From: Hyalangium ruber
GTDB taxonomy: Bacteria > Myxococcota > Myxococcia > Myxococcales > Myxococcaceae
Direction: 5' to 3'
DNA length: 64,000 bases
Assembly: GCF_034259325.1 (NCBI RefSeq)
Contig: NZ_JAXIVS010000006.1
Span: forward strand, 496,001-560,000
Translations under genes and position numbers: made by a program
Shown here: one piece after another, positions 47,498 to 61,098 of the stretch
Layout of the letters: every line of letters begins with the position of its first letter
How positions within the stretch are numbered: the stretch's first letter is position 1
Notes under the pieces: model-generated
Seen by the model: the letters and a program-made list of their open reading frames with translations, nothing else
What the model was told of the DNA's origin: nothing
The model's database searches: none

Positions 47498-48715
47498 TCA
47501 GGGAGACGGCGTGGCGGCCGGCTCCGGAGCCTTCACGGCGGCCCTCGGAGCGGGCTGATCCGTCCGTACCCGCTCCAGCCGGGAGCCGGTGGGCTTACGA
47601 GGAGGCGAGCGCCGGGCGGCCACCGCCGGGGAGGCCGTCTCCTCGGTGGGCAGCTCCTCCAGCTTCACCCGCAGTTTCAGGGGCTGGGCGCCCCGGCGCA
47701 CCTGGAGCACCACGCTCTTGCCGACGCCGCGCGCCGCCACCTGCCAGCGCAGCTTGTGCGCCCGGTCCACCTTCCGGGAGTCCAGGCCGACGATGACATC
47801 TCCCACGCGCAGGCCAGCCCGGCCCGCGGGGCCCTGCTCCTCGACGGCGGAGACCACGACGCCACTGCCGCGCGTGGACAGCCCGTACTCCGCGGCCAGG
47901 TCCTTCGAGTAGTCCGCCACGGCGATGCCCATCCACCCGCGGCGCACCTTGCCGTGCGCCTTGAGGTGCGGGAGTACCGCCTTGGCGATGTCGATGGGGA
48001 CGGCGAAGCCGATGCCCTGGCCCGCCACGTTCACCGCGTTGGCGATGGCCACCACGTCCCCGTGCAGGTCCAGCACCGGCCCGCCCGAGTTGCCCGGGTT
48101 GATGGAGGCATCCATCTGCATGTAGTCGAAGTCACCGTCGCGCCCGTTGGGCGTCACGTCCTGGCGGCCCTTGTAGCTGACGACGCCCACCGTCACCGAG
48201 TGCGCCAGCCCGAAGGGGTTGCCGATGACGACGATCCAGTCGGCCACCTCCACGTGGGAGGCCGAGGACAGCTTGAGCGCCTGCAGCTTGCGGCCCGTGT
48301 CGACCTTCAGCAGCGCGCAGTCGGTGCGCGGGTCCTGGCCCACCACCTTCGCCGGGAAGTCCTCGGGGTAGCCGCGCGGGGAGAGCACCGACACGAACAC
48401 GTCCGAGGCGCCCTCCACCACGTGGGCGCTGGTGAGGATGTAGCCGTCCGGGTGGATGATGAAGCCCGAGCCGATGCCCTTCTGCGGCTCCTCACCGGAG
48501 ACGGCGGAGTCGGCGCTTGCCTGGTGGGTGGTGATGGAGACCACCGAGGGCATGGCCGCGCGCGCCACCTGGCTCAGCGTGGAGCGCTGCTGGTGGACTT
48601 CCTGGCCCTTGGCTTCGAGCCACAGCCGTCCCCCTCCCGCCCACGCCGGGGCCGCCACCATCACCGCGTACGTCACCGCCGCCAGCAGCACGCCCTTGAC
48701 CCGCGTCCTCGACAT
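47498..48715 (-). CDS. HtrA/DegP-type serine protease with PDZ domain
   Basis: 405 aa from ATG 48715 with GGAGG 6 nt upstream. A signal peptide ends near A-P-A-W-A. The trypsin-like domain has H98 (S-A-H-V-V), D132 (T-D-C-A-L-L-K) and S210 (N-P-G-N-S-G-G-P). One PDZ domain follows (about 275-365), then a Pro/Arg-rich tail. Only one PDZ is seen, as in DegS-like proteins. Expected in the periplasm as a quality-control protease. The small membrane-protein gene lies 90 nt upstream on the same strand. Confidence 0.93.
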   Translation of the reverse strand: MSRTRVKGVLLAAVTYAVMVAAPAWAGGGRLWLEAKGQEVHQQRSTLSQVARAAMPSVVSITTHQASADSAVSGEEPQKGIGSGFIIHPDGYILTSAHVVEGASDVFVSVLSPRGYPEDFPAKVVGQDPRTDCALLKVDTGRKLQALKLSSASHVEVADWIVVIGNPFGLAHSVTVGVVSYKGRQDVTPNGRDGDFDYMQMDASINPGNSGGPVLDLHGDVVAIANAVNVAGQGIGFAVPIDIAKAVLPHLKAHGKVRRGWMGIAVADYSKDLAAEYGLSTRGSGVVVSAVEEQGPAGRAGLRVGDVIVGLDSRKVDRAHKLRWQVAARGVGKSVVLQVRRGAQPLKLRVKLEELPTEETASPAVAARRSPPRKPTGSRLERVRTDQPAPRAAVKAPEPAATPSP

Positions 48716-48805
48716 GGACCGCCTCCACACCCGACCACCTTGGCGCGAAGCTAAGGAGGCACGGGAGGTAGCGGAAGCGGCAGGGGGCCGGGCGGGGAGC
48801 GCTGC

Positions 48806-49210: not shown

Positions 49211-50293
49211 ATGTGCGCGGCCTTGCAGCCCGAAGAACTCTTCCAGGCGGCCCAGGAGCGGGCGGCGCAGATCGATGTCCGGCGCAGCGGTCTGCCGGCG
49301 GCGTTGGAGCGCGTGCGAGCGGATGCCTCGGCGCTGTTCGCGCGCATTCCCGAGCCCCCGTTGTACCGGCGCGCGGAGGATCCGGCGCGCAAGGCGGCCG
49401 AGGCGCTGCTGCCCGAGGTGGAGCGGGTGCTGGCGATGGCGCTGGCGGTGTCGTACGAGCGGGAGGCCCCGGCGGCGATTCACGGCATCCTCGCGGCGGT
49501 GCGTGCGCACGGCGAGGCGCTGTGCCACACGGTGAGTGGGCGGCTGGGACAGGCGGAGTCGGCCTGGCGGCGGGCGCTGGAGCTGGAGCGGGCGGCGCAC
49601 CCCACGCGCAACCTGGTGACGCAGGCGCCCCGGCAGCCGCCGGTGTTCGACAAGTCCTCGGGGGCCTCGCGGTATGACCCCCGGGAGGCGCCGCACGCGA
49701 AGGTGAAGCTGGTGTGCCCCAACACGGGGTGCAAGCGCATCGACGACTACGCCTTCACGGCGAGCCACGCCTACCACCGCTTCGTGTGCCCGGCGTGCAA
49801 CACGCCCTTCCTGGCGTACTTCGGCGAGCTGCGGATGCTGGAGGTGGAGTCGCACCGCAGCTCCAACCGCTACCTCTTCACGGTGGATGAGATCGCCGGC
49901 GGGGGTAGCTCGCGCATCGACTTCGAGGAGGCCAGCGGCGCTGAGTTCCCCGCGGCGCGCAGGGACCTGCTGGCCTTCCTCTATACGGAGGCGCGGGAGC
50001 TGAAGGCGGTGGTGAACGTCACCAACGGCCGGTTGATGTGGATCAGCCCAGCGGCTTCCTGCTTCCTTGCTACGGCGGCCTTCGGCGAAGGGGCGCCCGA
50101 GCTGGTGGCCTTCCGAGCGTTCCGGGACGATGTGCTGCGCCACCATGGGCTCGGCCGGGCCTTCATTCGGGGCTACTATCGCCATGGTCCCGGGGTCGCG
50201 GAGTGGGTGGTGCGCCACCCGCGCGTGCGGACCGGGGTGCGCGGGGCGCTGACGCTCGTGCATCGGGGCTTGATCAGGAGTGGACACGCGTGA
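49211..50293 (+). CDS. CFI-box-CTERM protein with zinc-ribbon-like motif
   Basis: 360 aa from ATG 49211. Residues 1-145 are helical (TPR-like packing). A Cys motif follows (C-P-N-T-G-C, then C-P-A-C about 25 residues later), then a beta-rich stretch. The C-terminus carries the CFI-box pattern S-C-F-L-A-T-A-A-F-G, followed by L-x-x-F-R-x-F-R-D-D-V-L and an amphipathic G-R-A-F-I-R-G-Y-Y-R segment. CFI-box-CTERM domains are a known C-terminal module of unknown function. It opens a seven-gene plus-strand unit; its TGA overlaps the next GTG. Confidence 0.85.
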   Translation: MCAALQPEELFQAAQERAAQIDVRRSGLPAALERVRADASALFARIPEPPLYRRAEDPARKAAEALLPEVERVLAMALAVSYEREAPAAIHGILAAVRAHGEALCHTVSGRLGQAESAWRRALELERAAHPTRNLVTQAPRQPPVFDKSSGASRYDPREAPHAKVKLVCPNTGCKRIDDYAFTASHAYHRFVCPACNTPFLAYFGELRMLEVESHRSSNRYLFTVDEIAGGGSSRIDFEEASGAEFPAARRDLLAFLYTEARELKAVVNVTNGRLMWISPAASCFLATAAFGEGAPELVAFRAFRDDVLRHHGLGRAFIRGYYRHGPGVAEWVVRHPRVRTGVRGALTLVHRGLIRSGHA

Positions 50294-50886
50294 CGCAGCA
50301 GGTGACACCGCCACAGAACGAGGGAGCACCCAAGCCGCCCGCCCGTAGCGCGGGGGACTGGGGGGCCACGGCGCTGCTGGTGCTCACGGCGCTGTTCGGG
50401 CTCGGGGGGCTGGTGTACCTCGGGGTGACGGAGGCACAGCGCTCCAAGATGGTGCCGGAGGGCGCCAGGCCCATGAGCTTCCAGTTGGGGCGCTACGGCG
50501 GGGGCACGCTGGCGCTGGAGGACCTTCGGGGCAAGGTGGTGATGCTCGACTTCTGGGCGACGTGGTGCCCGCCGTGCCAGGAGGAGATGCCCGCGCTGGT
50601 GAAGCTGGCCAAGGAGTACGAGAGCCAGGGGCTGGTGTTCGTGGCGGCCAGCCGGGATGACGACGACGTGAAGGAAGAGGTGGTGGACCAGTTCGTCAAG
50701 CGCTTCCTGCCGGAGCTGGGCCCCTACGTGGTGTACGCCAATGACGACGTGGCGCGGGCCTTCAAGGTGGAGGCGCTGCCCACGCTCTACTTCCTGGACC
50801 GCGAGGGCAAGGTGACGGACGCGGTGCGCGGGATGATGAGCGAGGCCGCCTTGCGCAAGCGTATCGAGCGGGCGCTGAAGCCCTGA
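50290..50886 (+). CDS. Membrane-anchored thioredoxin-like protein (TlpA/ResA type)
   Basis: 198 aa from GTG 50290 (GTGA overlap). A single N-terminal TM segment (about 28-48) anchors a thioredoxin domain with W-A-T-W-C-P-P-C (C93, C96) and the cis-Pro loop V-E-A-L-P-T-L-Y-F. The Glu-rich insert typical of TlpA/ResA is present. It should reduce or isomerise disulfides in the periplasm, or deliver electrons. Partner unknown; Cys-bearing products of the same operon are candidates. Confidence 0.93.
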   Translation: MTQQVTPPQNEGAPKPPARSAGDWGATALLVLTALFGLGGLVYLGVTEAQRSKMVPEGARPMSFQLGRYGGGTLALEDLRGKVVMLDFWATWCPPCQEEMPALVKLAKEYESQGLVFVAASRDDDDVKEEVVDQFVKRFLPELGPYVVYANDDVARAFKVEALPTLYFLDREGKVTDAVRGMMSEAALRKRIERALKP

Positions 50887-50889
50887 CGC

Positions 50890-51726
50890 ATGGAAGCCTC
50901 GCGTGGTGGCCTGGTAGGCCTGTTCGGGCGCCCCTTCCTCAACCTCGAGCCCTACCTGGACCTGAAGCGGCTCGAGTCGCTGGACGATGAGATCTGCTAC
51001 GCGCTGGCCCAGGTGCAGACGGGCTACACGGGCGGCAGCCACAAGGCGATGGGGATCGTCCCGCCCTCGATGGCGGAGGACCCCTACATCGACTACGGGC
51101 AGGTGATTCGCGGCTTCAGCGAGGCGGAGTTCGCCACCTTCCTGTCGCTGGGGCAGGAGCCCGGGGCGTTCGACCCGAAGTTGCGGCACACGTACGAGTT
51201 CGGCGAGGAGCGCGAGCACCCGCTCACGCGCGAGCAGATGCTGTTCCTGAAGTACAAGCACGGCGTCTACTTCCCGTGGAAGGTCTTCTACGAACTCATC
51301 CCCGGCGGCTACTGGAGCGAGAAGAGCAAGGCCAAGGACTTCACGCGGGAGGCGCGGCTGTACTTCCCGCGCACGGTGGCGTTCGTCCAGTCGCTGCCCT
51401 TCCAGGAGATCGGCCGCTGCACGGTGATGGGGCTGGAGGCCAACGATCATGGCACCGTCCACCGCGACGGTGAGCCCGAGGAGCAGACGGCCCCGGACCA
51501 CTTCATCACCGTGAGCCCGCGCGGCAACAAGCGGCTGTTTCTCTGGGAAGAGGAGGCGCGGCGCAAGACACCGGTGACGGGCCGGGCCTACTGGTTCAAC
51601 GATTTCGACTACCACGGCGTCGAGGCGGATCCGTTCTTCCGCTACTCCCTCCGGGTGGATGGCGTCTTCACTCCGGAGTTCCTGGAGCGGCTGGGGCGGG
51701 ACTTCGAGGTGTCCTCGGGCAGTTGA
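50890..51726 (+). CDS. Protein with 2-oxoglutarate/Fe(II) oxygenase-like site
   Basis: 278 aa, starting 3 nt after the previous stop. The C-terminal half shows a facial-triad pattern: H191-x-D193 (V-H-R-D-G), distal H242 (D-Y-H-G-V-E) and a downstream Arg (R251 or R255 in F-R-Y-S-L-R), as in Asp/Asn beta-hydroxylase-type oxygenases. The N-terminal half is not recognised. No signal peptide is present, so a cytosolic enzyme is expected. The fold assignment rests on spacing alone. A second 2OG oxygenase gene lies 4 kb away on the other strand. Confidence 0.65.
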   Translation: MEASRGGLVGLFGRPFLNLEPYLDLKRLESLDDEICYALAQVQTGYTGGSHKAMGIVPPSMAEDPYIDYGQVIRGFSEAEFATFLSLGQEPGAFDPKLRHTYEFGEEREHPLTREQMLFLKYKHGVYFPWKVFYELIPGGYWSEKSKAKDFTREARLYFPRTVAFVQSLPFQEIGRCTVMGLEANDHGTVHRDGEPEEQTAPDHFITVSPRGNKRLFLWEEEARRKTPVTGRAYWFNDFDYHGVEADPFFRYSLRVDGVFTPEFLERLGRDFEVSSGS

Positions 51727-51743: not shown

Positions 51744-52601
51744 ATGGAGCTTCGCCCCCTGTACCTGCTCACCTTCAGTGGGATCACCACGCTGATCCTC
51801 CTGCTGCTGTTCCGCCTCGGGCAGCGGTTGGTGTCCCCCTCGCACACCGTGCGAGAGGACCTGGAGCACGACCACACCGCGCGAGCGCTGCTGCAGGTGG
51901 GGCAGGTGCTCAGCGTCTTCCTTATCGCCGGCTCGGTGGTGGCGGGCTCCGTGCAGGGCGAGAGCGTGGCGCAGGATGCGCTCTGGGTGGCCGCCTACAG
52001 CCTGCTGGCGCTGGGGCTGCTGGCCGTCTTCGGGCACCTGGGGGTGAAGGTGCTCCTGCGCTCGCGGCTGCCGGCGGAGATCGAGCGCGGCAACACCGCG
52101 GCGGGGCTGGCGGCCGGCGCGCATTACCTGGCCACCGGCATCATCCTCTCGCGCTCCATCTCCGGCACGGACCTGAGGACGCTGGGCATCGCGCTGGTGT
52201 TCTTCGTCATGTCTCAGTTCGCCCTGCACCTGTTCGTGGTGCTCTTCCGCACGCTCACCGCCTATGACGACGCGGAGGAGGTGCTCGGGGAGAACGTGGC
52301 GGCGGCGATCAGCTACGCGGGCGTCACCATCTCCCTGGCGCTCATCATCGGTCACGCGGTGGAGGGCACCTTCGAGGGCTGGGGGCCGTCGCTGAGCGGC
52401 TATGCCAAGGCGCTCATCTTCATCCTCACGCTCTACCCGGTGCGCCAGCTGCTGGTGCAGACGCTGCTCCTGGGGGCGCGCTTCACGCTGCGCGGGGGCC
52501 GGCTGGACCAGGGCATCGCCGCCGAGCGCAACCTGGGCATGGCCGTGCTGGAGGCGGTGGCCTACCTGGCCGCGGCCTTCCTCGTGACGCGCATCTCATG
52601 A
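51744..52601 (+). CDS. DUF350 membrane protein (YjfL-like, duplicated)
   Basis: 285 aa, about eight hydrophobic helices arranged as two similar halves (about 1-140 and 141-285), each starting with a helix rich in Leu/Ile and containing a G-x-x-x-G-A or S-x-x-G-x-I pattern. This matches tandem DUF350. In E. coli, yjfL (DUF350) lies in one operon with yjfC, an ATP-grasp protein. Here too the ATP-grasp gene begins inside this gene's stop (ATGA). Function unknown in all species as far as I know. Confidence 0.85.
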   Translation: MELRPLYLLTFSGITTLILLLLFRLGQRLVSPSHTVREDLEHDHTARALLQVGQVLSVFLIAGSVVAGSVQGESVAQDALWVAAYSLLALGLLAVFGHLGVKVLLRSRLPAEIERGNTAAGLAAGAHYLATGIILSRSISGTDLRTLGIALVFFVMSQFALHLFVVLFRTLTAYDDAEEVLGENVAAAISYAGVTISLALIIGHAVEGTFEGWGPSLSGYAKALIFILTLYPVRQLLVQTLLLGARFTLRGGRLDQGIAAERNLGMAVLEAVAYLAAAFLVTRIS

Positions 52602-53857
52602 ACGCGTCCTCCTTGAGCTACGAGGCGCTCGCCGAGCGCCTGCTCGCCACGGGCATCGTCACGGATCCGTGGCTGTCCGGCACGCCGCGCTTCCGCGTGG
52701 AGCCGCTGCTGCTGTCGCGCGAGCGTCAGGCGCGGCTCTACCGGGCGGCCGAGGACGTGGCGGCGGCCTATCACGAGCTGAGCTTGGCGTGCGCCGCCTC
52801 GCCGGAGGTGCTGGAGTCCTTCTTCGCGCTCACGCCGTTCCAGCGGCTCATGTGGCAGGTCTCGCAGCCGTTCTGGCATGGCATCGCCCGGGCGGATGTC
52901 TTCTTCACCCGGGACGAGGGGCTGGCCGTGTGCGAGCTCAACAGCGACACGCCCACGGGCGAGGCCGAGGCGGTGTTGCTCAACCCGCTGGTGCAGCCCT
53001 CCTGGCCGGGCACGGTGGACCCGAATGGGGAGCTGGGCGAGCGGCTGTGCCAGATGGTGGAGTCGCTGGCGGGACGGCTGCTGGTGCCGGTGCCGGAGCG
53101 GCTCTCGGTGGGCATCATCTACCCCACGGAGATGCCCGAGGACCTGGCGCTCGTGCGGCTGTATCGCGCCTGGTTCGAGGAGCGCGGCTGGACGGTGTCG
53201 CTGGGCTCGCCCTTCAACCTGTCGGCGGGCGCGGACGGGCGGGTGTGCCTCTTCGGGGAGCCGTGTGACGTGCTGCTGCGCCACTACAAGACGGACTGGT
53301 GGGCCGAGCGCCTGCCGGTGTGGGGCGACGAGGAGCCCGCCGAGGACATGGCGCCGCTGTCAGGCCCCTTCTCCGTGGTGATGCAGGCGTGCCTGGAGGG
53401 CCGGTGCGTGGTGGTGAACCCCTTCGGAGCCGTGCTCACGCAGAACAAGCGGGCCATGGCCTTCATGTGGGAGCACCACGAGCGCTTCTCACCGCGCGCC
53501 CGCGCCACCATCCGCGCCTTCGTCCCCTACACGGTGCGGATGGAGACGGTGCCCATCGAAGAGCTGGCGAAGGATCGGGAGGGCTGGGTGCTCAAGTCGG
53601 ACTACGGAGCCGAAGGGGACCAGGTGCTGGTGGGCCGGCACACGGTTCAGGGCGACTGGAACGCGGCGCTGGTCCATGCGGTGCCGGGCCGGTGGGTGGC
53701 CCAGCGCTACTTCGCGGCGGAGGAGACGGCGGGTGGCGAGGCGGTCAACCACGGTGTCTACGTCATCGCGGGCGAGGCGGCGGGCCTCTATGCCCGCGTG
53801 CAGCGCGGCGCCACGGACACGCAGGCCTTGAGCGCCCCGGTGCTCGTGGTGCCCTGA
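52598..53857 (+). CDS. Glutathionylspermidine-synthase-like ATP-grasp ligase (YgiC/YjfC family)
   Basis: 419 aa. Family features: E-L-N-S-D-T-P-T-G-E near residue 113, a central N-P-F-G-A-V-L-T-Q-N-K, and the ATP-grasp lysine/glycine segment L-K-S-D-Y-G-A-E-G-D-Q-V. W-V-A-Q-R-Y-F stands at the phosphate-binding end. There is no amidase domain, unlike true GspS. Such enzymes make amide bonds with ATP; E. coli YgiC and YjfC have unknown substrates and are encoded beside small proteins (YgiB, YjfM). Here the following gene could play that part. Confidence 0.92.
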   Translation: MNASSLSYEALAERLLATGIVTDPWLSGTPRFRVEPLLLSRERQARLYRAAEDVAAAYHELSLACAASPEVLESFFALTPFQRLMWQVSQPFWHGIARADVFFTRDEGLAVCELNSDTPTGEAEAVLLNPLVQPSWPGTVDPNGELGERLCQMVESLAGRLLVPVPERLSVGIIYPTEMPEDLALVRLYRAWFEERGWTVSLGSPFNLSAGADGRVCLFGEPCDVLLRHYKTDWWAERLPVWGDEEPAEDMAPLSGPFSVVMQACLEGRCVVVNPFGAVLTQNKRAMAFMWEHHERFSPRARATIRAFVPYTVRMETVPIEELAKDREGWVLKSDYGAEGDQVLVGRHTVQGDWNAALVHAVPGRWVAQRYFAAEETAGGEAVNHGVYVIAGEAAGLYARVQRGATDTQALSAPVLVVP

Positions 53858-53870
53858 GGGAGGCTCGGCG

Positions 53871-55328
53871 ATGGCGAGTGACGACACGAAGAAAGAGCCC
53901 GAGGTGCTTCCCTTCCGGCGCCATGTGACGGTCCAGCAGCCGGGGATCGTCGGCGCTCAGTGGTGGAACGATGGCCTCTCGGCGATGGGGTCTCCGGTCA
54001 ACCGCCGTGGCGCGCTCAAGGCGTTGCTGGTGGTGGGTGGCACGGTGGCGGTGGGGGGAATCGGCATTGCCTCCCAGATCAAATCGTCCGAGCCCGACTA
54101 CGACATCGAGATGCTCGACACGCTGGAGACCCAGCGCTCGCAGGGGTGGAACTTCGGCGCTCCGGACGAGTCGCTCTCCTTCACGGGCCAGGTGCCGGTG
54201 AGTCATGAGGAGACGTCCCTCCACAAGTTCGCCACGGAGATGTCGCCGAAGCAGGACCGGCTCAAGCCCTTCTACCAGGCGACGCTGTTCCAGGCGCTCG
54301 CGGGGACGGTGCCGAGCACGATTCCGTCGGCCGTGGCGCTGAGGGCCGCGGTGAAGCCCGTCCTCACGCCCGCGATGGACACGGCGTTCCGACAGGGCCA
54401 GGCGCTGGCGCGCCTCTTCGAGGAGAGCGAGGAGGTGACGCGCGCCACGGTGGTGATGGTGGATCTGCCGGGGCCCGAGGCGGTGGCGTTCGCCGCGGGG
54501 CTGTCGCGGAGCTTCGAGCCCGTCTTCACCTTCGACAACTGGCCGCACCCGCGCGGCCTGGTGCCCGCGCACCTCACGCTCGGCGCGGCGCTCTACTACC
54601 GCCCGCTCCTGGAGCGGACGGCGAGGAGGCGATCCACGTCGGCGCCTCCGGTGCTCGTGCTCGATCGCAACCGGCTGCTGCCCTACACCAAGCCGCAGAC
54701 CCAGTTCGACAACCGCTACCTGGCGCGGCTGCCTCCGGCCGCCCGCCTGACGGAGATGGGCTTCAAGCACGTGCTGTACGTCGCGCCCGGGGACGGCCCC
54801 CTGCAGGAACTGGACGACATCAACGAGGACTTCGTGAGCTACCGCGAGGCCCGCCTGGACGTGAAGAGCGTGGCGGCGAGTGACTTCCAGCCCGCGCCCT
54901 CCGAGCCCTCGCTGGTGGAGGACGTGGTGACCACGCCGTACACCAGTGATGTGCTGCCGGAACTGCAGCGGCGGCCCTTCTACTTCGGGGGCTCACCGGT
55001 CTCGCACAGCTCCTTCTGGATGTTGTACCCATGGCTACGGGGCGCGACGGCTCCGGCGATGGCCGCTGTGCCGAACCCCCTGCCTCCGAAGACCGCGGGT
55101 GGGCACCGCTACGAGCCTCAGAGGAGGGCGACGATGTTCTCGCTTCCGCCGAGCTCGGCCTCGGGCGCGCCGCGACCGAAGCCCACGGGCTTCGCCAAGG
55201 TGCAGGTGAAGGTGGCGGCCGCGAACCGGCAGATCCTCGGGTTTGCCTATGGCTCCTACAGCTCGTGGAACCGTGCGCCGACGGCCCACAGCTCTTCCAG
55301 CTCCGGCTATTCCAGTTACGGTGGGTGA
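53871..55328 (+). CDS. Membrane-anchored protein with Ser/Tyr-rich Gly-Gly tail, possible ligase substrate
   Basis: 485 aa. A Tat-like segment N-R-R-G-A-L-K-A-L starts near residue 44, followed by a hydrophobic stretch (to about 67), so most of the protein would lie outside the cytoplasm. A long unrecognised domain follows. Near 375-385 is S-S-F-W-M-L-Y-P-W, then a low-complexity region, ending in a Ser-rich stretch and G-Y-S-S-Y-G-G. As I recall, E. coli YgiB also has an S-F-W-M segment and ends in Ser-rich sequence with Gly-Gly; this needs alignment. Lying 13 nt after the ATP-grasp gene, the tail is a candidate for modification. Confidence 0.75.
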   Translation: MASDDTKKEPEVLPFRRHVTVQQPGIVGAQWWNDGLSAMGSPVNRRGALKALLVVGGTVAVGGIGIASQIKSSEPDYDIEMLDTLETQRSQGWNFGAPDESLSFTGQVPVSHEETSLHKFATEMSPKQDRLKPFYQATLFQALAGTVPSTIPSAVALRAAVKPVLTPAMDTAFRQGQALARLFEESEEVTRATVVMVDLPGPEAVAFAAGLSRSFEPVFTFDNWPHPRGLVPAHLTLGAALYYRPLLERTARRRSTSAPPVLVLDRNRLLPYTKPQTQFDNRYLARLPPAARLTEMGFKHVLYVAPGDGPLQELDDINEDFVSYREARLDVKSVAASDFQPAPSEPSLVEDVVTTPYTSDVLPELQRRPFYFGGSPVSHSSFWMLYPWLRGATAPAMAAVPNPLPPKTAGGHRYEPQRRATMFSLPPSSASGAPRPKPTGFAKVQVKVAAANRQILGFAYGSYSSWNRAPTAHSSSSSGYSSYGG

Positions 55329-55337
55329 GAGGAGCGT

Positions 55338-55904
55338 ATGGACTACTCCATCTTCGCGATGCAGGTGACGCGCCGCATGCAGTCGCCGAGGGACCCGCTC
55401 CACGAGCGGCTGCACCGGCTCATCTCCGGAGAGCCGGAGCGCGTCACCGCCGGGCAGCGGTACCGCTTCTACCGGAAGCTGAGCACCGAGCTGCTGCCGG
55501 CGGTCGGGGAGTTCGAGAAGGGAGTCTGGGACTACTGGGATGTGCCCTCCCGTGCGCCGGGGGACTTCCAGGACTGGGTGGATGGGCTCCAGGGACGCGA
55601 GGCGCGCTCCTCACCCGCGCCGGACGACGGGGAGCCGCGATACATGGTGTTCACCATGTCGCTGCTGCTCCAGCACGGCAGCACGAGCGACGTGCGGATG
55701 ACGTCGCACTGCAACATCCCCGAGCTCCAGCTGTGGCGGTGGTCCACGTTCGAGCACCTGCTGAAGGGCATCACCCTGCTGAACTTCCTGAACGTGCAGT
55801 CGGATGTGGTGTACCTGTTGCCGGGAGACGACGCGGGGTACGGCCTGACGGCGGAGAACCTGGGGAGCCAGGACTACCACTACCTGCGCAACCTTCACCG
55901 GTGA
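55338..55904 (+). CDS. Unknown protein closing the DUF350/ATP-grasp operon
   Basis: 188 aa, ATG 9 nt after the preceding stop. No signal peptide or TM segment. Features: an N-terminal helix with Arg/Pro, Y-R-F-Y-R-K-L, D-Y-W-D-V-P, and a C-terminal part rich in Trp, Leu and Asp (L-Q-L-W-R-W, V-Y-L-L-P-G-D-D-A-G-Y-G). No family is recognised. It ends 5 nt from the convergent oxygenase gene. Confidence 0.75.
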   Translation: MDYSIFAMQVTRRMQSPRDPLHERLHRLISGEPERVTAGQRYRFYRKLSTELLPAVGEFEKGVWDYWDVPSRAPGDFQDWVDGLQGREARSSPAPDDGEPRYMVFTMSLLLQHGSTSDVRMTSHCNIPELQLWRWSTFEHLLKGITLLNFLNVQSDVVYLLPGDDAGYGLTAENLGSQDYHYLRNLHR

Positions 55905-55909
55905 GCGCG

Positions 55910-56662
55910 TCAGAACCACACTTCCCAGACGGTGCCTGAGGCATCCAGCGCAGCATGCGCGGTGGCGGAGATGCGGTCCCGCGAGCCGGTGAACGGCTGG
56001 ATCTGGTGGAGGCGGTAGCTGTCGAGGATGACCAGGTCCCCGGTGCCGTAGCGCGCATCCGCGTGGGCAAGCTGGGGCAGGTCCTCCGGAACCTCATCAC
56101 TTCCCTCGTAGGTGGCGTCCCACAAGCGCAAGGCTCCGCCCGCCTCGGGAGGCTGGAGCATGAGAACCAGCGTGATGGCGCGCGAGCCCCGCTCGCACTG
56201 GGTCTCGGAGAGCCCCTCGGTGTCGAAGTGGATGTCTCCGCCGTGTTCGGACAGCCACTGGCCCGCGGGGAAGATGTGGACACCGGGGCCGCACCAGCCG
56301 GGGCGCTTGATGGCGGAGGCTCCGACGAGCGTGGAGAGGACCTCGAGCAGCCGGGCCTGGAAGCCGGGGAGGAAGCGCTCGACCTGGGCGTCGGAGGCGC
56401 GGGCGTTGGTGAAGTACTCCTCCTCGCGATCCTGCTCGAGGTGGGTGTACCAGGCGCGGCCAAGGGAGAACTGCACGCCGTTGAAGTCGGAGATCCAGAA
56501 GGGCCTCCCGGCGTAGACGCGGCGCGCGAGGTGCGCGCACTCCTCGGCAGCCAGGAAGCCCGGCACGTGAACGCCGAGGTGCGCATCGAGCAGCCCGAAG
56601 AAGTCGGCGCGGCCCGAGCGCAGCTCTTCCCACGAGCGCTCGGCGAGGGTGCCCAGGCTCAC
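55910..56662 (-). CDS. 2OG-Fe(II) oxygenase (prolyl-4-hydroxylase type)
   Basis: 250 aa from a GTG that overlaps the stop of the OmpA-like gene (GTGA). The iron/cosubstrate site is complete: H145-x-D147 (H-F-D-T-E-G), distal H219 (S-Y-R-L-H-Q-I) and Arg R228 or R230. The double-stranded beta-helix core I-T-L-V-L-M-L and G-G-A-L-R-L-W-D supports the call. No signal peptide. Family members hydroxylate Pro, Lys or other side chains. Coupling to the OmpA-like gene suggests, but does not prove, a link to that protein. Confidence 0.88.
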   Translation of the reverse strand: MSLGTLAERSWEELRSGRADFFGLLDAHLGVHVPGFLAAEECAHLARRVYAGRPFWISDFNGVQFSLGRAWYTHLEQDREEEYFTNARASDAQVERFLPGFQARLLEVLSTLVGASAIKRPGWCGPGVHIFPAGQWLSEHGGDIHFDTEGLSETQCERGSRAITLVLMLQPPEAGGALRLWDATYEGSDEVPEDLPQLAHADARYGTGDLVILDSYRLHQIQPFTGSRDRISATAHAALDASGTVWEVWF

Positions 56663-58479
56663 TTCGTGCCTGGTGCCGCGCCGCCGGGAGCCGCGGGCGG
56701 AGCCGCGGGGGGCGTGGGAGCGGGCACCTCGCGGGCCGGCGTCTCCACCTCATCGCGGATGAGGCGGAAGTCGACGCGGCGGTTCTTGGCGCGGCCCAGC
56801 GGCGTGGCGTTGTCGGTGATGGGACGATCGAAGCCGAAGCCCTTGGCGCTCAGGCGCTTGCGCGCGATGCCCTTGCCGACGAGGTACTCCATGACCGCCT
56901 TGGCGCGCCGCTGGGACAGGTCGACGTTGTAGTTGCGCGAGCCCACGTTGTCGGTGTGACCCTCGATGAGGACGGGGCCGAGCATGGGGTTCTTGGCGAG
57001 CACGGAGGCCACCTCATCGAGCAGCTTGAAGGACTGCTTCTGGATCTTCGCCTGGCCCGTCTCGAAGAGGATGTTGCCCTTGATGCGGATGCGGTCGGAC
57101 TCGACGACGACGAACGGCGGCGCGTCGTAGGGGCAGCCGTTGTTCTCCGGGGGGCCGTACAGGTCCGGGCACTCGTCCTGGTTGTCGGGGATCTCGTCGC
57201 CGTCGCTGTCCGGGCAGCCGTCGTACTCCTTGGGGCCGGCCTTGTCGGGGCAGGCGTCCAGGTGGTCGAAGAGGCCATCGCCATCGGTGTCCGTGTCGGG
57301 CGGGCAGCCGCGGTGCTCCTTGAGTCCGGGCTTGTCGACGCAGCGGTCCTCGCCGTCGGCGATGCCGTCACCGTCGTTGTCCGGGTCCAGGCACCCATCA
57401 TCATCCTCGTGGCCGTCGCGGTCCTCCTTCTCGCTGGGGCACTTGTCGCGTGAGTCGGGCACGCCGTCGCCATCCGAATCGGCGGACTCCTTCTCGTAGC
57501 TCAGGGCCACCATCACCCGGAACGCCTCGCGCCCGTAGCCGCCCCTCAGGCCGATGCCACGGCCCACGGTGAGCGCCAGCCCCCAGGGGCCGGCTATTCG
57601 GGTGCGCGCGCCCACCATGGCCTCGAACGGGGTCTTGAGCGAGTCGGCCTGGCTGAAGTTGAAGGGCGAGGAGGCCGGGGTGGACAGGTGCAGCTCCGCC
57701 AGGGCCTGCACGTCGGTGAAGCGTCCCATGTTCGGCAGGTCCACCACGGCGCCCGCGCCCAGGGTGAGCTCGTCGTCCACGAGGAGGTTGAGGTACTGGG
57801 CGTGCTTGCGGAAGCGCCACCCCACGTTGCCCAGCAAGCGCACCGGTCCGAAGGAGCGCTCCACCGCCAGCCGCGGCGACACCAGCACTCCGCGCTCGCC
57901 GAGGAAGCTGCCCGCGTTGCCCGTGGGCAGCCGCACCTCACCCACCAGGGCCAGCCCCACGGGAGCCAGAGAAGGATCCAACAGGGTGAAGCGCGGCAGC
58001 AGGCGCACATCTCCCAGGCCGTAGCGGCTCACGCCCGCCGCGCCCGGAAAGTCCGGCGCCGCGAGGGCATCGCGCAGCAACTGGAAGCGATCGCCTTGGA
58101 TCACGGTGAAGGGAAGGTCCGCCGCCAGCTCCAGGCGCGGGTGGACCTGGTAGGCGAAGAGCGCGTGCGCATCGAGCCGATAGGGGAGCAGGTCCCCTAG
58201 CTTCTCGTCCCCCAGGTTGAGGGAGAGGATGCTCAGGTTGAAGTCCAGCAGCAGCGAGGCGCGCATGCTGCCCACGGACGGCATCCGGGCGCCCTCGAGC
58301 GCGAGGCCGCTGTCCTGGGCCGCGGTGGCCTTCACGGGCACCGCGTCGAAGCTCCGCGAGAATGGATCGTGATCCGCCCAGGCCGTTCCGCTCCCCACGA
58401 GGAAGCACAGGAACACCAGGCGGATGGCGGCGGGGTGCAGCAGCCCTCCAAGGTAGGGCGCCAAGAGCGAGCCTCGCAT
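56659..58479 (-). CDS. Outer-membrane protein with TSP3-type repeats and OmpA domain
   Basis: 606 aa from ATG 58479, giving a signal peptide that ends near G-T-A-W-A. The first 330 residues look like a transmembrane beta-barrel (alternating aromatic strands, R-Y-G-L-G-D-V). Then come five to six calcium-binding thrombospondin type 3 repeats (D-x-D-G-D-G-x-x-D, each with a Cys) over about 345-455. An OmpA C-terminal domain follows (E-G-H-T-D-N-V-G, N-x-x-L-S-x-R-R-A) and a Pro/Ala tail. It anchors outer membrane to peptidoglycan. The oxygenase gene is coupled downstream. No Shine-Dalgarno; a TATAAG box lies 7 nt before the ATG. Confidence 0.93.
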   Translation of the reverse strand: MRGSLLAPYLGGLLHPAAIRLVFLCFLVGSGTAWADHDPFSRSFDAVPVKATAAQDSGLALEGARMPSVGSMRASLLLDFNLSILSLNLGDEKLGDLLPYRLDAHALFAYQVHPRLELAADLPFTVIQGDRFQLLRDALAAPDFPGAAGVSRYGLGDVRLLPRFTLLDPSLAPVGLALVGEVRLPTGNAGSFLGERGVLVSPRLAVERSFGPVRLLGNVGWRFRKHAQYLNLLVDDELTLGAGAVVDLPNMGRFTDVQALAELHLSTPASSPFNFSQADSLKTPFEAMVGARTRIAGPWGLALTVGRGIGLRGGYGREAFRVMVALSYEKESADSDGDGVPDSRDKCPSEKEDRDGHEDDDGCLDPDNDGDGIADGEDRCVDKPGLKEHRGCPPDTDTDGDGLFDHLDACPDKAGPKEYDGCPDSDGDEIPDNQDECPDLYGPPENNGCPYDAPPFVVVESDRIRIKGNILFETGQAKIQKQSFKLLDEVASVLAKNPMLGPVLIEGHTDNVGSRNYNVDLSQRRAKAVMEYLVGKGIARKRLSAKGFGFDRPITDNATPLGRAKNRRVDFRLIRDEVETPAREVPAPTPPAAPPAAPGGAAPGTK

Positions 58480-58593
58480 GGGGGCGCTTATAGCCCCCAC
58501 TGTTCGAGAACCAAAAAATTTATGCCGGAATGAGACTTTTACATGTTTTTTGTGAGAAAACAGTGAATCACGTTGGACCACCAAGGAGCGTAA
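58480..58593. promoter_or_regulatory. AT-rich divergent promoter region between the OmpA-like and subtilase genes
   Basis: The 114-nt gap is the most AT-rich stretch of the window. For the OmpA-like gene (minus strand), TTGGTT (58514-58509), a 16-nt spacer and TATAAG (58492-58487) end 7 nt before the ATG. The -10 lies in an inverted repeat GGGGGC (58480-58485 region) with GCCCCC (58493-58498), a possible operator. For the subtilase, AAGGAG (58583-58588) is a good ribosome site, but no clear promoter hexamers stand out in the T-rich stretch at 58537-58560. Confidence 0.5.

Positions 58594-61098
<2,505 letters not shown>

Follow-up and report, generated by a model that had tools for sequence, protein, structure and literature searches.

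A divergent GspS/YgiC-type ligase beside a Tat-like anchored protein with a Gly/Ser-rich tail in Hyalangium ruber: a candidate system for C-terminal polyamine attachment

The GspS synthetase couples the C-terminal Gly of glutathione to spermidine as an amide. Escherichia coli also encodes two ligases of this type next to proteins with Gly-Gly ends: ygiB, located directly before ygiC, encodes a protein that contains SGSFWMP and ends in TSSRSMGG, much as a first-pass annotation of the DNA studied here had stated, and yjfM, located directly before yjfC, encodes one that ends in SSARGHWGG. The same annotation had treated the substrate of these ligases as unknown, a view that is now out of date, since RefSeq names both YgiC and YjfC peptide--spermidine ligases; PMC12568646 cites them, after Pederick et al. 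2023 (doi 10.1021/acs.biochem.2c00592), as peptidylpolyamine synthetases. The literature accessible to us holds no description of the biological role or the in-cell substrates of YgiC/YjfC-type ligases. PspA-context operons with ATP-grasp, YjfL and DUF1190 genes are described by Ravi et al. 2024 (PMC11237479), and spermidine attached to the C-terminal Gly-Gly of SUMO by E1/E2 enzymes has been reported (PMC12270671). Our search of the literature, outside which subscription papers lay so that a prior mention is possible, found no text on the tails or the gene cluster described below.

The window, i.e. the whole stretch of Hyalangium ruber DNA that was analysed (64,000 nucleotides), carries a cluster with several features of these systems on its forward strand (Table 1). 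The gene junctions proposed in the first-pass annotation are exact to the nucleotide: the DUF350 and ATP-grasp genes overlap by ATGA at 52598-52601, a 13-nt gap separates the ATP-grasp gene from that of a 485-aa protein (53857 to 53871), and a 9-nt gap separates the latter from that of a 188-aa protein (55328 to 55338). Its operon of these four genes stands, and has to be extended by a conserved upstream gene for a 278-aa protein that it had missed. A thioredoxin/TlpA-like gene (50038-50886, +) ends 3 nt before the 278-aa gene and is possibly co-transcribed. The surroundings further include a convergent gene for a WelO5-like 2OG-Fe(II) oxygenase (55910-56662, −; PF22814, E=7.4e-10), as well as genes for a DegP/HtrA-like protease with a PDZ domain (47498-48730, −), an OmpA-family protein with thrombospondin type 3 repeats (56659-58584, −) and a subtilase with Big_7 and PKD domains (58594-61098, +).

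Table 1. Position and basis of the features of the cluster in the window
Feature	Position	Strand	Basis or remark
278-aa protein gene	50890..51726	+	2OG-Fe(II)-oxygenase-like by motif; putative accessory gene of the system
DUF350 membrane protein gene (YjfL relative)	51744..52601	+	Two PF03994 stretches
ATP-grasp ligase gene, GspS/YgiC-type, 419 aa	52598..53857	+	PF03738 above cut-off and residue conservation
485-aa protein gene, Tat-like anchored, proposed ligase substrate	53871..55328	+	Homologue alignment; no family
Twin-arginine and hydrophobic stretch of the 485-aa protein	53997..54084	+	About residues 43-71
Gly/Ser-rich C-terminal tail of the 485-aa protein	55251..55325	+	Residues 461-485; SSWNR motif, terminal SYGG
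188-aa protein gene	55338..55904	+	No family or fold match

The DUF350 and ATP-grasp assignments both proved sound: the former protein matches PF03994 over two stretches (E=1.5e-33), and the latter matches PF03738 (GSP_synth) with E=1.5e-12 and 47.9 bits versus a cut-off of 29.3. Equivalents of GspS R316, D318, E330, N332, E391, E392, K498, K533 and R598, for which we assume the functional roles ascribed to them in GspS, are kept in the window ligase (R98, D100, E113, N115, E181, D182, K284, K333 and R400) and in its relatives; the equivalent of E392 is Asp in the window ligase clade, as it is in YgiC. The position of GspS R538 is not conserved, being Ala or Cys in this clade and A338 in the window ligase. 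Similarity to YgiC is distant (23% identical columns by hhalign), and sequence searches of the PDB gave nothing useful, with the profile of the ligase clade reaching YgiC (7uk8) only at E=0.6. The window ligase is a divergent GspS/YgiC-type ATP-grasp enzyme with conserved catalytic residues. Several positions near the catalytic residues differ between its clade and YgiC, so the amine specificity may differ as well, and no polyamine gene lies within the cluster. Both points would suit a ligase that acts on the tail of the 485-aa protein with another amine or amino acid (a second peptide, putrescine or a lipid amine), yielding something other than a spermidine conjugate. This is unlikely in our judgement, because the ligase retains the acidic pair that corresponds to GspS E391/E392, homologues of SpeD (AdoMet decarboxylase) and SpeE (spermidine-synthase-like) lie about 3 kb apart in the host genome, and the nearest characterised relatives use spermidine.

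No family in Pfam or NCBIfam matches the 485-aa protein above cut-off, and a fold search with its predicted model returned no PDB match at E<=0.001. The 10.8-Mb host genome contains no other convincing copy of its gene, and a plasmid search found none. A Tat-like N-terminus is plausible: R45 and R46 are invariant in 11 homologues, a hydrophobic run follows them, and TAT profiles score below or near threshold, with the best stretch for the NCBIfam TAT model at residues 43-63 (E=0.18, sub-threshold) and one homologue matching Pfam TAT_signal (E=0.0014). The L027 homologue has RRE and then a lipobox-like TQAGC. Ahead of the twin arginine lies a long, conserved stretch with GIVGAQWWN, in which W31 and W32 are invariant; this part would be cytoplasmic and, as a speculation, could hold the ligase or DUF350.

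At the other end of the protein, the tail segment is disordered in the predicted model. The tail is not a chance feature, in that none of the 296 gene-like ORFs in a 400-kb sample of the host genome has a comparable C-terminus and S-[WF]-x-R occurs near the C-terminus of all 18 complete homologues. All 18 adjoin a ligase gene; a further relative (L025), which is interrupted by a contig end, lies outside this set. Because the tail is kept in every complete homologue, the finding that the first-pass annotation would have taken as a refutation, namely ligase-linked homologues without a tail, was not made. A Gly end is found in 17 and a Gly-Gly end in 15 of the 18, so that the strict Gly-Gly tail of the first-pass annotation is not universal, and 16/18 pass when Gly/Ser plus motif is scored uniformly.

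In 12 other Myxococcota genomes and on ten contigs (partly of the same genomes), we found relatives of the 485-aa protein with identities as low as 31%. Their hosts comprise Hyalangium, Archangium and Sorangium as well as unclassified assemblies of deltaproteobacteria and one of a planctomycete; among the named hosts that we found, Hyalangium and Archangium are the closest. The ligase gene adjoins the 485-aa gene in every one of these loci, and the DUF350 gene, which neighbours the ligase in nearly all loci, and the 188-aa gene are nearly always there too. The order in Sorangium is divergent, with the ligase and DUF350 genes on one strand and the genes for the 278-aa, 485-aa and 188-aa proteins on the opposite one. 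Among 193 Myxococcota genomes, 13 have the 485-aa protein, and exactly these 13 also have the 188-aa protein. The ligase occurs in all of them, in one genome where the locus is interrupted by a contig end (G057) and, as a remote relative, in another (G014). The tail protein and the ligase thus co-occur in a phylogenetic profile, a point that the first-pass annotation had proposed to check, and the ligase, 485-aa and 188-aa proteins are essentially all-or-none.

The 188-aa protein has a confident predicted model (pLDDT 88), which matches no PDB fold at E<=0.001; neither Pfam nor NCBIfam yields a family for this protein above cut-off. The 278-aa protein, present in 9/193 Myxococcota genomes, all of them ligase-bearing, has no Pfam match and no relevant PDB match, and looks like a 2OG-Fe(II) oxygenase by its HxD...H...R motif, with H191, D193, H242, R251 and R255 invariant. 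Comparison by hhalign with the WelO5-like product of the convergent gene gave no relationship. In Sorangium, the 278-aa and 485-aa genes overlap by one base, and from this overlap and the gene order the 278-aa gene belongs to the system where it is present; a second copy, with about 45% identity to that of the window, is found in G055 and G057.

Comparable tails also occur beside YgiC-type ligases of other bacteria. At 19 of 20 YgiC-type loci in plasmid records from Pseudomonadota, Actinomycetota, Deinococcota, Cyanobacteriota and Bacillota (all but L088), an adjacent protein has such a tail, mostly of the form SRGGFG-x(n)-GG; a neighbour on either side of the ligase was accepted here, which favours a find. 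When scored uniformly, 19/21 ligase-adjacent proteins pass versus 0/120 other genes, a background formed by the remaining annotated genes in most of these loci; a terminal Gly is present in 16/21 versus 11/120. Most of the tailed proteins have a lipobox-like motif, and of ten searched against Pfam, one is a DUF1190 protein and the others have no match over cut-off. The tail could in principle be a Ser/Gly extension of generic, low-complexity type on an exported protein, with the ligase nearby only incidentally, as Ser/Gly-rich ends are easily gained and the tail is predicted to be disordered; however, its absence from both backgrounds (0/296 host-genome genes and 0/120 compared-locus genes) and its retention beside YgiC-type ligases across families and phyla make this highly improbable.

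Five myxobacterial YgiC-type loci (L058-L062) keep SRGGFG tails whose last residue is E, S, T, A or S and never Gly, so the tail motif is more constant than the terminal Gly. Such constancy of RGGFG or S-[WF]-x-R would be as for a docking motif, with an unmodified tail that only docks a partner (the ligase, DUF350 or the cell wall) and a ligase that makes a small-molecule or other amide; the related GspS uses a small molecule, and ligases without tailed neighbours exist. On the other hand, Gly ends are strongly over-represented (17/18 and 16/21 versus 11/120), and reports describe the relatives in E. coli as peptide ligases, so that we regard a purely docking tail as quite unlikely. Three divergent PF03738 ligases of Myxococcota (L054, L055 and L036; 25-28% identical) have neither DUF350 nor a tailed neighbour, and possibly act on another substrate. 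The L054/L055 ligase follows a gene with an NAD-binding-epimerase-like N-terminus.

We favour, with moderate confidence, the reading that the ligase would link a polyamine, probably spermidine, as an amide to the C-terminal carboxylate of the tail before Tat export. Polyamine attachment to the end of the 485-aa protein is probable because the ligase is related to the E. coli peptide-spermidine ligases and the tail resembles those of their partners. The first-pass proposal that the ligase adds an amine to a Gly tail gains from tail conservation, co-occurrence, the catalytic residues, SpeD/SpeE and the cross-phylum tails, though not with a strict Gly-Gly end; the alternative in which the tail serves as carrier and the proposed role of DUF350 as membrane site gain no such support. 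The cytoplasmic ligase would use ATP to turn the tail carboxylate of the 485-aa protein into an acyl phosphate and would then pass the acyl group to a primary amine, for which spermidine is the likeliest candidate, in the manner of GspS acting on the C-terminal Gly of glutathione. Once modified, the protein would be exported and anchored in the membrane via the Tat route, and its disordered tail would thereby bring extra positive charge to the envelope. Coupling should precede export because the ligase shows no export signal, and the Tat route would permit this because it moves folded proteins. DUF350, the 188-aa protein and the 278-aa oxygenase-like protein may be accessory parts, and the last of these might hydroxylate the substrate or the amine. 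From the comparisons above we infer which reaction takes place, with which amine and at which site, that it precedes export, and what the accessory proteins do. Against conjugation, the membrane would separate the ligase from the exported tail if modification did not come before export; a terminal Gly is absent in 1/18 of the 485-aa family, 5/21 of the wider set and 5/5 myxobacterial YgiC-type loci; some Myxococcota PF03738 ligases (L054, L055 and L036) have no tailed neighbour; and the R538 equivalent is Ala or Cys in the window clade.

More tentatively, it is possible that C-terminal polyamination of envelope proteins is widespread in bacteria and works through a short tail motif (SRGGFG...GG or S-[WF]-x-R...GG) on unrelated protein families, with a separate version in myxobacteria and relatives that has a Tat substrate and an oxygenase, possibly giving a hydroxylated, hypusine-comparable conjugate. 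If this is true, many bacteria decorate envelope proteins C-terminally with polyamines. That a second candidate substrate, unrelated in sequence, bears a similar tail suggests the tail as the feature that is recognised. This offers a directly testable prediction in bacteria ranging from Myxococcota to Bacillota, and a modification that is poorly understood would then look widespread.

Compared with known systems, the cluster resembles YgiB-YgiC and YjfK-L-M-C in that a GspS-type ATP-grasp ligase adjoins an anchored protein whose Gly/Ser-rich tail ends in Gly-Gly, and in that the ligases share their catalytic residues; with the yjf operon it also has DUF350 in common. It differs in that the 485-aa partner is not a DUF1190 protein like YgiB/YjfM and only the tail motif is alike, in that PspA, DUF2170 and DUF2491 genes are absent from the cluster, in its extra 188-aa and 278-aa partners, and in the predicted Tat export of its partner as opposed to lipoprotein export in E. 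coli. Homology to DUF1190 was tested since SFWM, PxFSS[KR] and GFG occur both there and in the C-terminal region of the 485-aa protein, and it was rejected: hhalign of the family profile with YgiB and YjfM gave short segments and no shared domain, and when the comparison was confined to the C-terminal regions only a 7-column motif aligned, with a score of 12.7 versus a mean of 7.2 (sd 1.3, maximum 11.6) in 100 column shuffles. Because the alignment covers only these seven columns, it points to a short linear motif rather than a shared domain, and convergence or transfer is a fair reading of its presence in both YgiB/YjfM and the 485-aa family. The synthetase domain of E. coli GspS has the PF03738 ATP-grasp family and the catalytic residues in common with the window ligase, and differs by its small-molecule substrate, fused amidase and lack of a tailed protein partner. 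The operons of Ravi et al. 2024 (PMC11237479) likewise bring together DUF350, a GspS-like ATP-grasp enzyme and an exported protein, and the accessible text describes neither C-terminal tails nor a window-type cluster with three uncharacterised families. SUMO/ubiquitin-spermidine conjugation (PMC12270671) shares the placement of spermidine on a C-terminal Gly-Gly carboxylate, but it is eukaryotic and uses E1/E2 enzymes and a folded ubiquitin-like protein. As its partner is not DUF1190, the window system is not a strict member of the YgiB-YgiC type; it would nevertheless work like YgiB-YgiC, with further partners and a substrate from a new family.
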